Source of the DNA: a virus
Length of the DNA: 20,197 bases
Strand: one strand, 5' to 3'
IMG/VR virus record: IMGVR_UViG_3300035664_000111
Coordinates: 1-20,197 of that record
How positions within the stretch are numbered: the first letter of the stretch is position 1; each line of letters opens with the position of its first letter. The notes under the pieces were generated by a model. It saw nothing but the letters and a program-made list of their open reading frames with translations. It was not told where the DNA came from and made no database searches. This document shows positions 2 to 6,251 of the stretch, piece by piece. A program made the position numbers and the translations under genes.

Positions 2-115
2 AAAGAAGCCGCGTTAATTTGCGTAGATGAAATTTTAGAAACAATTTCCGAATATCACTTACAAGCGGAATGGTGGCAAGAAGTTAAACAAGAAATAAAA
101 AAGATATGCAATTAA
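2..115 (+). CDS. 3' end of a truncated phage gene of unknown function
   Basis: An open frame enters from the left edge in phase 2 and stops with TAA at 113-115, giving 37 residues that end in EVKQEIKKICN. The start lies outside the window. The visible part is amphipathic and helical, with a Trp-Trp pair in AEWWQEV. It overlaps the next gene's ATG (106) by 10 bases, as is usual in this gene cluster. The ending resembles short helical proteins often found in the early region of Bacteroidota phages, but I cannot name a family and assign no function. Confidence 0.6.
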   Translation, partial: KEAALICVDEILETISEYHLQAEWWQEVKQEIKKICN

Positions 116-513
116 AGAACAAATTTACCACACTAATCGAAGATAACGACTTACGCAAACGTAGCAGAAAACGCAAGTACGTTAACCAACGGGGATACGT
201 AATTAAATTAATGCGGGGGTACGGATTCAGTTATATTGAAATCGGGGAAATGTTAGGCTTGAATCACGCGACTTGTATACACGCCTTCAACAACGCGAAT
301 CTTTGGGAATCAATTAACGACCGCCATTTTTACAACGACACCGAACACCTACGCGCAGCAATGAACGATTTTAAAATAACGCGAACTATTAATGATTTAT
401 ATTTAGACGTTAAAAGCGCGGGTGGGTTAAAAGACTTAGAACATATACAGGAACGAATTTACCGAGGGGAATATCAAATAAATTTTCAATACGATGAACA
501 TATATTAAATTAA
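106..513 (+). CDS. DnaA domain IV-like DNA-binding protein
   Basis: A 135-residue basic protein. Residues about 36-64 contain GFSYIEIGEMLGLNHATCIH, which follows the pattern of the helix-turn-helix in DnaA domain IV: a helix, then 'IG..LG', then 'HATV.HA'. In bacterial DnaA the H-[AST]-T motif contacts the DnaA box. The N-terminus is rich in Lys/Arg (RKRSRKRKY). There is no AAA+ ATPase domain, so it is not a complete initiator. It may bind origin-like sites or act as a regulator. It is the last gene before the only large gap of the early region (514-639) and sits just upstream of the replication initiator, which fits a role in replication control. The fold assignment is fairly secure; the role is inferred. 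Confidence 0.7.
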   Translation: MQLKNKFTTLIEDNDLRKRSRKRKYVNQRGYVIKLMRGYGFSYIEIGEMLGLNHATCIHAFNNANLWESINDRHFYNDTEHLRAAMNDFKITRTINDLYLDVKSAGGLKDLEHIQERIYRGEYQINFQYDEHILN

Positions 514-518
514 TTAGT

Positions 519-526
519 TATATTTG
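519..526 (+). promoter_or_regulatory. Candidate Bacteroidota -7 promoter element
   Basis: TATATTTG matches the Bacteroidota primary sigma factor -7 consensus TAnnTTTG exactly. It lies six bases after the stop of the DnaA-like gene. No convincing -33 TTG/TTTG element is present 19-21 bases upstream, so the promoter may be weak or need an activator. The predicted start point, a few bases downstream at about 531-533, coincides with the first stem of the structured RNA candidate. Confidence 0.5.
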
Positions 527-530
527 TAAA

Positions 531-624
531 CGCATTCATCCTACATTATAAATGCGAAAAGAAGTTATTAAGCTCTTAAATGAACGTGAGGTAGGATGCA
601 CGGGATTTTAAGGGCTTTTTTTAT
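531..624 (+). ncRNA. Candidate structured RNA: two hairpins with complementary loops and a terminator-like end
   Basis: Hairpin 1 has stem CGCATT (531-536) with AATGCG (551-556) and a 14-nt loop (537-550). Hairpin 2 pairs 570-580 with 607-617 (11 bp, one G-U). Above that is a 4x4 internal loop in which 582/605 and 583/604 can form tandem G-A pairs, then CGTG (585-588) with CACG (599-602) closing a 10-nt loop (589-598). The loop segments CATCCTAC (537-544) and GTAGGATG (591-598) are exactly complementary over 8 bases, allowing a kissing-loop or pseudoknot. Hairpin 2 is followed at once by a run of T (616-622), as in an intrinsic terminator. The -7 element at 519-526 would start transcription at the base of hairpin 1. 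It could be a small RNA or a leader/attenuator of the replication initiator gene. I do not recognise a named RNA family. Confidence 0.55.
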
Positions 625-639
625 TTATTAAAATTTAAT

Positions 640-1263
640 ATGAGCGGTTGGATTAAGATACACCGAAAGTTTTTAGATTGGGAATGGTTTAACAAAAGCG
701 AAGCGGTACACCTATTTATTTATTTGCTATTAAAAGCGAATCACAAAGACGCAAGTTGGCAAGGTATGGAAGTTAAACGAGGCGAATTTATTTCGTCTTT
801 AGGTAAGATTTCTTCGGATACAGGAATCAGTTTACAAACGCTTAGAACACTTTTAAAAAAGTTGGAAAGTACAAACGAAATCGAAGTAAAATCAACAAAC
901 AAATTTACTACAGTAACTATTTGTAAATATGATAGTTACCAAGACGAAACGGAAGACACTAACAAGCAACTAACAAACAATCAACAAACAACTAACAAAC
1001 AACTAACAACAAACAAGAATGATAAGAATAAAAAGAATGAAGAAAACATATACAGGCGCTTCGCTCATTTGTGTTTAACTCAAGATGAATTTGAAGGTTT
1101 AAAAATAAATTGGACTGAAGAACAAATAAACGAAATTTTAGACCAAATAGAAAACTACGCTAAAAATAAAGCCTATAAAAGTTTAAATTTAACGGCTCAA
1201 AATTGGTTAAAGAAAAGTTATCCGATAAAAAAAGACGAACCGTTTAAGTTCGCTTGGCAATAA
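640..1263 (+). CDS. Phage replication initiator-like protein (winged helix, DnaD/primosome type)
   Basis: A 207-residue protein opening MSGWIKIHRKFLDWEWFN, the typical N-terminus of phage replication organiser / DnaD-like proteins. Residues about 1-100 form a winged-helix DNA-binding domain (ISSDTGISLQTLRTLLKKLE is the recognition region). Residues about 105-135 are a Thr/Asn/Gln/Lys linker (TNKQLT repeated every 11 residues). The C-terminal part, about 136-207, is a helical domain including QNWLKKSY and probably recruits a helicase or other replication protein. The linker DNA consists of 11-bp direct repeats, so the origin may lie inside this gene, as in lambda O. The gene starts 16 bases after the T-run of the upstream structured RNA and is followed by the RecA-like ATPase. 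The role comes from family resemblance and context. Confidence 0.75.
   Translation: MSGWIKIHRKFLDWEWFNKSEAVHLFIYLLLKANHKDASWQGMEVKRGEFISSLGKISSDTGISLQTLRTLLKKLESTNEIEVKSTNKFTTVTICKYDSYQDETEDTNKQLTNNQQTTNKQLTTNKNDKNKKNEENIYRRFAHLCLTQDEFEGLKINWTEEQINEILDQIENYAKNKAYKSLNLTAQNWLKKSYPIKKDEPFKFAWQ
967..1010 (+). repeat. Four tandem 11-bp iterons inside the replication initiator gene; candidate replication origin
   Basis: Copies begin at 967, 978, 989 and 1000. Copies 1 and 3 are CAACTAACAAA, copy 2 is CAATCAACAAA and copy 4 is CAACTAACAAC. Further looser CAAACAA units continue to about 1017. The 11-bp period is close to one helical turn and is not a multiple of three, so the matching protein repeat recurs only every 11 codons. 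Strand asymmetry is marked (almost no G). Known initiators such as lambda O bind iterons in their own gene; that this is an origin is inference. Confidence 0.5.
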
Positions 1264-2811: not shown

Positions 2812-3327
2812 ATGAAGTGTAAGAACTGCAAAGCCGAATTCACTCCCGTTCGATTTAATCAAAAGTTTTGCTTTGATACTGAATGTGTCCGTGTTTGGGT
2901 AGAACTTGAAAAGGAAAAACAATGGAAGAAAAAGAAAAAGGTACTAAAAGACGAACTCCAAACGGTTCAAGAACTAACTAAACTTGCCCAAGTGGTATTT
3001 AACAAGTATATAAGGCTACGAGATAAAGATAAACCTTGCGTAAGTTGCGGTTGTAAACTCGGTTCAAAGTTTGACGCAGGCCATTATTTTAGTAGTGGCG
3101 GACACAAAGCCGTTACATTCGACGAAGACAACGTACACGGGCAATGCGTAACCTGCAACCAACATAAACACGGAAACTTATTAAACTACCAAATCGGAAT
3201 CCAACAAAGAATTGGCGCGGATAGTTTAATAGAACTACACGCCAAAGCACACAAAACGCGAAAGTACACACGCGAAGAACTCAAAGAAATAATAAAAACA
3301 TACAAACAAAAGATAAATGAGATTTGA
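2812..3327 (+). CDS. ninG: NinG-like recombination protein (lambda Rap family)
   Basis: A 171-residue protein. The N-terminal zinc-binding module has C3-x2-C6 and C20-x4-C25. A basic helix follows (KKKKK at about 39-43), then the NinG core: NKYIRLRDKDKPCVSCG (64-80), DAGHY (88-92), and NVHGQCVTCNQHKHGN (107-122), whose Cys pairs and His/Asn residues form a treble-clef/HNH-like site. In lambda, NinG (Rap) stimulates recombination and binds branched DNA such as Holliday junctions. Here it sits just before a PD-(D/E)XK nuclease candidate and upstream of the ERF/exonuclease pair, forming a recombination cluster. The family assignment is strong. Confidence 0.85.
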   Translation: MKCKNCKAEFTPVRFNQKFCFDTECVRVWVELEKEKQWKKKKKVLKDELQTVQELTKLAQVVFNKYIRLRDKDKPCVSCGCKLGSKFDAGHYFSSGGHKAVTFDEDNVHGQCVTCNQHKHGNLLNYQIGIQQRIGADSLIELHAKAHKTRKYTREELKEIIKTYKQKINEI

Positions 3328-3724: not shown

Positions 3725-3754
3725 CATTTTTTAACAAATAAATTATATCGAAGT

Positions 3755-3785
3755 ATTGTTAATTGAAATAATATATTTATATTTG
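3755..3785 (+). promoter_or_regulatory. Bacteroidota-type promoter upstream of the recombination genes
   Basis: A -33-like element ATTGTTA (3755-3761) and an exact -7 element TATATTTG (3778-3785) are separated by 19 bases counted from the TTG to the TA, within the normal range for Bacteroidota promoters. The gap 3725-3807 is very AT-rich. Transcription would begin near 3791 and read the 77-residue ORF, ERF and exonuclease genes. Confidence 0.7.
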
Positions 3786-3807
3786 TATATAATTAAAAAC
3801 AAACGCT

Positions 3808-4041
3808 ATGAAAAAATGCAGAACCAAAAAAGATTTAATTAATAGTCCTTATGTATCGGGTATACATACCGAATATCAATATGGGGTATTTGATAATTAC
3901 GACGATATATATATATTATCTTTAAAAGGGGGTTATTGGTTTAAGGAAGAACAAGTTGGTTGTTTACACGAACCGACAATTTCGAGATTAATTTCAAGAT
4001 TTAATTCAATGACAATAAGCAAAAGAACAGACGAATTTTAA
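3808..4041 (+). CDS. Small conserved-type phage protein of unknown function
   Basis: A 77-residue protein starting MKKCRTKKDLINSPYVSGI. It has no recognisable domain. The middle (YDDIYILSLKGGYWFKEEQVG) looks like two beta strands joined by a turn, and the C-terminus is a short helix with SRLISRFNSM. It is the first gene behind the promoter at 3755-3785, and its ATG is preceded by ACGCT. A hairpin (4056-4075) separates it from the ERF gene, so it may be made in larger amount than the genes that follow. Function unknown. Confidence 0.6.
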   Translation: MKKCRTKKDLINSPYVSGIHTEYQYGVFDNYDDIYILSLKGGYWFKEEQVGCLHEPTISRLISRFNSMTISKRTDEF

Positions 4042-4094: not shown

Positions 4095-4613
4095 ATGAAA
4101 AATTTATTTAAATCGTTGGCAGCCTTCCAACAGGAAGTACCCGTAATTCACAAGGGTACACAAGGCTACGGGTATAGTTACGCAGATTTACCAAAGATTT
4201 TTGAAGTAGTTAATCCGCTACTAAATAAACACGGATTAGGATTTACGCAGTTACTCGACACTAAAGAAGGAATCGATTATATTGCAACCGTTATTTTTCA
4301 CGTTGAAACAGGCGAAACGTTAGAATCTAAAGTAGCCATTCCGCAAGTCGAGTTAAAAGGAATGAACGATTATCAAAGTTTCGGAAGCGGGGTTACTTAC
4401 TTCCGTCGCTACGCTTTGAGTTCGGCGCTTGGATTGGTTACGGACAAGGATACGGACGCTTCAGGCGAACAAGTAAAGAAAAGACCTACTATCGATAACA
4501 AACGATTAGGTAAGGCTTTAGAAATGATTGCAGACGGCAAATACACCAAAGAACAATTAATTGAAAATTTTGAATTAACTGAAGGTCAAACCAAATTAAT
4601 TGAAAATGTATGA
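4095..4613 (+). CDS. erf: ERF-family single-strand annealing recombinase
   Basis: A 172-residue protein with the ERF core: GYGYSYADLPKIFEVVNPLL (about 24-43), HGLGFTQ (46-52), the FHVETGETLES strand pair, and the family signature DYQSFGSGVTYFRRYALSSA (about 92-111) followed by LGLVTDKDTDA. P22 Erf forms rings on single-stranded DNA and anneals complementary strands; it helps circularise and recombine phage DNA. The C-terminal part (about 130-172) is a short helical domain. The exonuclease gene starts inside its stop (ATGA, 4610-4613), giving the classic exonuclease/annealase pair. The family assignment is secure. Confidence 0.9.
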   Translation: MKNLFKSLAAFQQEVPVIHKGTQGYGYSYADLPKIFEVVNPLLNKHGLGFTQLLDTKEGIDYIATVIFHVETGETLESKVAIPQVELKGMNDYQSFGSGVTYFRRYALSSALGLVTDKDTDASGEQVKKRPTIDNKRLGKALEMIADGKYTKEQLIENFELTEGQTKLIENV

Positions 4614-6165: not shown

Positions 6166-6170
6166 AGAAA

Positions 6171-6199
6171 TACCCCGCCGTAAAAAGTGTGGTTTTTTA
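6171..6199 (+). terminator. Possible weak terminator at the end of the early operon
   Basis: Just after the stop codon at 6165, the sequence has ACCCC near 6171 and GTGTGG followed by six T (6187-6198). A short imperfect stem between the C-rich and G-rich segments can be drawn. The T-run and location (end of one operon, before a new promoter) support a terminator, but the stem is poor. Confidence 0.3.
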
Positions 6200-6202
6200 T
6201 GG

Positions 6203-6235
6203 ATTGTTATGTTTAGAAATTAATCATTATATTTG
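6203..6235 (+). promoter_or_regulatory. Bacteroidota-type promoter for the sigma-factor gene
   Basis: ATTGTTA (6203-6209) serves as -33 element and TATATTTG (6228-6235) is an exact -7 element, with 21 bases between the TTG and the TA. The same seven-base -33 sequence occurs in the promoter at 3755, which suggests both are read by the host primary sigma factor. The start codon follows 17 bases after the -7 element, so the leader would be about 10 bases or less. Confidence 0.7.
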
Positions 6236-6251
6236 ACGACAAACTAAGCAA

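Follow-up and report, generated by a model that had tools for sequence, protein, structure and literature searches.

A new family of kissing-hairpin leader RNAs, candidate attenuators of phage replication operons

The window, that is the whole 20,197-nucleotide stretch of viral DNA analysed here (IMG/VR record IMGVR_UViG_3300035664_000111, positions 1 to 20,197), contains at 531-622, directly 3′ of a TAnnTTTG promoter element, two hairpins, an 8-bp helix between their loops and a terminal T-run. Comparison with related sequences supports the view that this two-hairpin kissing RNA is a real, conserved RNA, and we describe it as a new RNA family of the leader/attenuator type. We give a probability of roughly 0.55 to the reading that the element is an independently promoted leader RNA acting as a transcription attenuator of Bacteroidota-type phage replication operons. 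Judging from sequence and position, it is probably a switch that meters the output of the replication genes, and we infer that it works as an attenuator, as a trans-acting small RNA or as both. The features of the window are the following:

106-513, plus strand: upstream gene, with a DnaA C-terminal helix-turn-helix (Pfam Bac_DnaA_C, E 1.2e-07)
519-526, plus strand: -7 element TATATTTG (TAnnTTTG, Bacteroidota housekeeping promoter), from the sequence and the consensus in PMC7366714
531-556, plus strand: hairpin P1, with stem CGCATT (531-536) / AATGCG (551-556) and loop 537-550
537-544, plus strand: 5′ strand of the loop-loop (kissing) helix, CATCCTAC, in loop 1, exact complement of 591-598
557-569, plus strand: linker AA...TTATT, 13 nt, unpaired and conserved
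570-617, plus strand: hairpin P2, the terminator stem, with outer stem 570-580/607-617, inner stem 585-588/599-602 and loop 589-598
581-584, plus strand: 5′ side of the internal loop, UGAA, which can form tandem G-A pairs with 603-606
591-598, plus strand: 3′ strand of the loop-loop (kissing) helix, GTAGGATG, in loop 2, exact complement of 537-544
603-606, plus strand: 3′ side of the internal loop, GGAU (GGA 94-98% conserved, U 78%)
616-622, plus strand: T-run (T7) of a predicted intrinsic terminator
640-1263, plus strand: first downstream ORF, replisome organizer / helicase loader, starting about 20 nt past the T-run

The first-pass annotation had proposed such an RNA at 531-624, and its coordinates for the hairpins, the 8-base loop complementarity, the internal loop, the T-run and the promoter are exact. 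The flanking genes, which it had called DnaA-like and initiator genes, were also correctly recognized, as Bac_DnaA_C is found in 106-513 and relatives of ORF 640-1263 are annotated as 'DnaD-like helicase loader' (phi18:3) or 'replisome organizer' (Dulem virus 39); this ORF has in addition a weak RepL match, under the Pfam cut-off. TAnnTTTG is the Bacteroidota -7 consensus (PMC7366714), and four bases separate TATATTTG from the start of P1. P2 has a predicted energy of -15.7 kcal/mol and, with the T-run, shows the sequence features of an intrinsic terminator; the predicted energy of the loop-loop duplex is -10.4 kcal/mol. The element heads a long run of same-strand genes in the window, whose terminase is nearest to those of Flavobacterium psychrophilum phages (52% identity).

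Taken alone, the sequence of the window gives a modest signal. The minimum free energy of the element has a z score of -2.1 (5 of 200 shuffles fold equally well), which becomes -0.3 once more flank is included, and complementary 8-nt words separated by at least 20 nt arise in 130 of 3000 dinucleotide shuffles (4%). The earlier argument that chance would rarely produce such a combination is therefore only mildly supported by the window itself. A generic sigma-70/terminator scan did not pick up the element because its loop is long and its promoter of a different type.

The case for the fold comes from comparison. Scanning viral contigs twice with proteins as guides yielded 108 loci. These and other loci were first searched with model R1, in which P1 is shifted by one column and which is superseded by R3. 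R1 matches 86 of 98 sources, without exception on the strand that carries the query gene, with a second, weak match at two loci; it also matches all 60 loci newly fetched by the exact linker pattern. In an alignment of 52 distinct relatives made without structure, the proposed pairs are kept in 93.0% of cells, as compared with 68.2% after shuffling (0 of 500) and 31-50% when the pairing is slid. Two-sided changes occur at 24 of 29 pairs, in 373 cells altogether. They are seen at all six pairs of P1, the outermost of which alone is poorly kept, at 8 of the 11 pairs of the P2 outer stem (97.0% paired) and at all four pairs of the inner stem. The loop-loop helix is paired in 96.3% of cells; six of its eight pairs covary and two are invariant.

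An unbiased mutual-information scan of 89 distinct sequences, from the promoter to the start codon, gave the same picture: the pairs of P1, of the loop-loop helix and of P2 come out on top, at up to 20 standard deviations, and no coherent competing or alternative helix appears. Several positions are conserved in these 89 relatives while being unpaired, namely UGAA (96-100%) and GGA (94-98%) of the internal loop, A..ATA of the P1 loop (93-100%), and AA (559-560) and TTATT (565-569) of the linker, which are 93-99% identical. All 56 class I relatives (the class of the window element) that were found by the linker pattern alone, the T-run not being required, have a T-run, counted as at least six T in 8 nt. 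The compensatory changes that the first-pass annotation had suggested looking for, in the two stems and the loop-loop helix alike, are thus decisively present in the sets of 52 and 89 sequences and in the class II set described below. Base 590 of the window, the second of the 5′ spacer in the P2 loop, correlates with 536, 551 and 537 in the covariation scan (about 6.5 standard deviations); this correlation with the P1 closing pair possibly reflects a tertiary contact or shared ancestry.

A second class of elements carries AGUA/GAAA as internal loop in place of UGAA/GGA, which we take to be the sequence signature of the loop-E/bulged-G motif. Class II was first met at locus L087, at the same site, and at L033, at a second site. 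A pattern scan for it gave many matches; of the 80 that were fetched, at least 71 have a loop-loop complement of at least five bases. Among 46 class II elements, 90.8% of the cells are paired against 70.6% when shuffled, two-sided changes occur at 19 of 22 pairs and all seven loop-loop pairs covary; the T-run is sometimes weak, as in L200, and 2 of the 46 have only five T in 8. Loci L202 and L265 are hybrids that combine a class I P1 loop with a class II internal loop; they were used for neither model, and R3 (67.7 bits) and R2 (39.6 bits) each match them. Since these hybrids link both classes, we consider on sequence grounds that class I and class II form one superfamily. One class II copy was found by R2 in each of 15 viral records. 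The records of L033 and L005 hold one copy of each class, both copies of L033 lying 3′ of a TAnnTTTG element and 5′ of an ORF; otherwise there is usually one copy per phage. In the class II elements at L224 (1480-1596) and L238 (1900-2017), the promoter is separated from P1 by an additional short hairpin (GCCGAAAGGC-like).

Four cultured phages carry the element: the Cellulophaga phages phi18:3, phi19:1 and phi10:1 (43-44 bits, E about 1e-6) and Flavobacterium phage 11b (35 bits, E 2e-5). Complementary loop words in these phages are CTTCTGAC/GTCAGAAG, GTACGAC/GTCGTAC and CGGGCAGG/CCTGCCCG. TAnnTTTG stands just upstream of the element in phi18:3, phi19:1 and 11b, and TATATTTA takes this place in phi10:1. 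In phi18:3 and phi19:1 the strands of the internal loop are swapped, with GGA on the 5′ side and UGAA on the 3′ side, which argues that the internal loop is a symmetric non-canonical motif and not an incidental sequence. In phi18:3 the element occupies 3075-3171 on the minus strand of NC_021794, with gp008 and gp007 on either side and the DnaD-like helicase loader gp006 coming next; in phi19:1 it lies 5′ of gp030/gp031, an HNH gene and a primase/helicase. A TTGGTTATCTTAAAACCA-like stretch, possibly a small hairpin, is found between T-run and start codon in phi18:3 (L344), in phi19:1 (L345) and at L197 and L232.

Of 117 distinct class I contexts, 116 have TA..TTTG ahead of P1 at a distance of 2-8 nt, mostly 3-5, and all six of its defined bases are at least 97% conserved. 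In about four fifths of these 117 contexts the next ORF starts 17-25 nt past the T-run, and the remaining spacings mostly correspond to earlier in-frame start codons picked by the script. The upstream ORF is usually DnaA-C-like (88 of 124 cluster with the window type). The first downstream genes vary: they encode a helicase loader or replisome organizer, DUF6291, NUMOD4-HNH, a BT4734-like N-terminal domain, Prim-Pol or short acidic ORFs, and helicase-loader and P-loop proteins follow beyond the first gene. The idea that the element controls the initiator gene is too narrow for the wider family, which fronts many different first genes of replication modules and not this initiator alone. That the RNA would be structured, start at the promoter and end at the terminator, as first proposed, agrees with all three measures, the pairs holding at 93%, the promoter in 116 of 117 contexts and the T-run in 56 of 56 relatives.

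Promoter, structured terminator leader and same-strand ORF together make up the layout of an attenuator leader. Where 17-25 nt separate T-run and start codon, another promoter would not fit, so that the gene would have to be reached by read-through, either from the promoter of the element or from upstream. The simplest account of such read-through would be an attenuator that yields both a short RNA and a metered mRNA: most polymerases starting at the promoter would stop at the T-run and release a compact RNA of about 90 nt, and a metered fraction would continue into the replication operon. As no antiterminator helix is conserved, we infer that no hairpin competition of the classical kind would be involved, and that read-through would be governed by how quickly and stably the loops kiss and the non-canonical internal loop forms or, alternatively, by a factor reading the fold (protein, ligand or the polymerase itself). 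When partial transcripts are folded by a simple procedure, the loop words pair before the 3′ arm of P2 has emerged, so that kissing could pre-organise the terminator. Classical antiterminator attenuation was rejected, no mutually exclusive helix being conserved by covariation. Peptide-leader attenuation was rejected as well: there is a 19-codon ORF at 553, and its start codon and frame are not kept on reading the aligned relatives. Several considerations count against attenuation as such. The downstream gene could be transcribed from further upstream, the element then being a plain small RNA; P1 at the very 5′ end is what one would expect of a small RNA that is free and stable; and some class II elements have the weak T-run noted above.

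In a subset of class II the P2 loop has a further potential partner. The P1-loop word occurs a third time in 18 of the 46 elements, 15-21 nt beyond the stem and next to the start codon; five different words are each matched in this way, against 0.85 hits expected by chance. The third copy stands directly before the start codon in, for example, L193 (1057-1137 and about 25 nt downstream), L212, L221, L227 and L231, and its sequence varies together with that of both loops. The P1 loop and the start region are thus rival partners of the P2 loop in this subset, which suggests an added translational or antisense arm. In class I, no third copy was found in 89 elements and no second complementary site within 400 nt downstream, so that a translational arm cannot be general. 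Loop words can also differ between phages that encode the same DnaA-like protein. This is the case for L081 and L082 (around 4424-4517), whose flanks are 99% identical on both sides and whose RNA elements are only 76% identical, a pattern suggestive of cassette-like exchange of the RNA allele. Among 12 comparable pairs, the identity of the RNA is lower than that of the flanks in four and higher in three; allele replacement hence occurs, and a general excess of change is not shown. It is tempting, if rather speculative, to see in the paired loops a self-recognition code, by which the P2 loop of each phage would recognise the P1 loop of that phage and, for some class II elements, the phage's replication mRNA as well, alleles being swapped between otherwise nearly identical phages in a way that avoids cross-control during co-infection. 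If true, this would be a phage counterpart of plasmid incompatibility and would define a new superfamily of phage replication-control RNAs.

Several other explanations deserve consideration. The one we take most seriously, while holding it to be unlikely, is a trans-acting small RNA: the P2 loop of the ~90-nt product would pair with other RNAs and exert a negative feedback scaling with the number of genome copies, the partner in class II being the start region of the phage's own replication mRNA, much as in plasmid antisense control. A 5′-terminal hairpin followed by a terminator is indeed the anatomy of a stable small RNA, the P2 loop is complementary to the start-codon region in the 18 class II elements mentioned above, and the different loop words of the nearly identical L081 and L082 are what one would expect if cross-talk is avoided. 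However, class I lacks the second complementary site, the intramolecular pairing largely occupies the loop words, a free small RNA would not need the short and constant spacing to the ORF, and the divergence of the RNA relative to its flanks is not general. A processive antiterminator, whose nascent two-hairpin RNA would stay on the polymerase and carry it past the T-run of the element and past later terminators of the replication operon, appears quite improbable to us. Its model is putL of phage HK022, a cis-acting RNA of about 70 nt with two stem-loops immediately downstream of an early promoter (PMC9378689). The put RNAs (putL and putR) resemble the element as short, cis-encoded two-hairpin phage RNAs right after a promoter (early timing being assumed for our element); furthermore, the element heads a long same-strand gene run and its conserved unpaired bases could contact the polymerase. 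In contrast, put suppresses termination whereas the second hairpin of the element ends in a conserved T-run, which is contrary to what antitermination would require; the loops of the element pair, and no loop-loop helix is described for put in PMC9378689, where the word 'kissing' has no occurrence. The hosts also differ, and no sequence relation was found.

A metabolite riboswitch, with an aptamer embedded in the terminator and sensing, for example, a nucleotide, seems to us a still fainter prospect. The compact form, the conserved unpaired bases and the core within the terminator stem recall the HMP-PP (thiS) riboswitch, a compact terminator-borne switch whose conserved core is part of the intrinsic terminator stem immediately 5′ of the gene (PMC6478431). 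The HMP-PP riboswitch, however, has a competing P1/pseudoknot form and precedes thiamin genes, whereas covariation reveals no competing structure or alternative helix in our element, the first genes vary and share only their place in the replication module, and there is no Rfam match. It is very improbable that the hairpins are inverted repeats acting at the DNA level, as protein-binding sites or as an origin. The element does adjoin a DnaA-like gene, and in part of class II a 6-7-bp word is present in three copies; nevertheless, stems, internal loops and linker are constrained as in an RNA, and the different words of L081 and L082, whose DnaA-like proteins are identical, imply that no protein-specific site is kept. 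Finally, P2 and its T-run would make a textbook terminator for the upstream gene. We give next to no credence to this reading, since a promoter separates that gene from the element and an ordinary terminator would neither conserve the loops, the linker and P1 nor make them covary with P2; as a full account it is excluded by the pair test and the covariation scan.

Plasmids of the pT181 and ColE1 type control their replication by antisense or attenuation RNAs with kissing loops. The rep-leader control of pMV158 shares with our element the placing of RNA loops 5′ of a replication initiator gene, the kissing and the diversifying loop words (PMC4485353). The element differs from plasmid antisense control in that both pairing partners lie in one same-strand RNA. 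A counter-strand TA..TTTG, as an antisense promoter would require, is present in only 10 of 89 loci, where it is scattered, and plasmid-type control by a counter-strand antisense RNA was rejected on this count. A hairpin loop paired with a later strand is also known from the Pistol ribozyme and other loop-pseudoknot RNAs of Rfam. No Rfam model matched the element at the gathering cut-off. Of the known kinds of RNA, the element would be closest in its working to leader attenuators, without their classical competing helix.

At the gathering cut-off, Rfam 15 gave no match for the window and for 16 loci holding relatives of both classes; at E<=10, the sole match in the region of the window is irrelevant (minus strand, 709-726). 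Comparison of the region with named phages by blastn produced short, chance-level matches only, and tblastn with the DnaA-like protein found nothing in phages. The RNA is absent at distant homologues of the initiator in six bacterial MAG contigs. None of 395 Bacteroidota genomes contained it by model or exact pattern, which is weak evidence of absence because the model scored only 11 candidates per genome. We found no description of the element in the openly available papers searched, and it may have been described elsewhere under another name. The element represents a strongly covarying RNA family without an Rfam model. Well above a hundred phage contigs contain it, as do the four cultured phages, which belong to at least three groups. 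Its place is the switch to DNA replication, in viruses with poorly understood gene control. As a defined terminator that contains a pseudoknot and occurs with either of two non-canonical cores, UGAA/GGA or AGUA/GAAA, it also offers a handle on the control of RNA polymerase by tertiary structure.

Elsewhere in the window, R2 has a weak match at 3810-3891, inside an ORF (E 0.044). The kissing-hairpin element was not found in the gaps 3725-3807 and 6166-6251, which hold a TAnnTTTG-like element near 3780 and 6230, respectively. Other promoter-proximal, terminator-like hairpins (AAGAAAACAGTTGTAAGCTCCCCAGCACGCAGCTGTTTTTT; AAACCCCCTACATCTTTGGTTAGTTTGGTAGGGGGTTTTTT) recur in the relatives, for example at L053 near 2045, L005 near 1234 and L045 near 1703.
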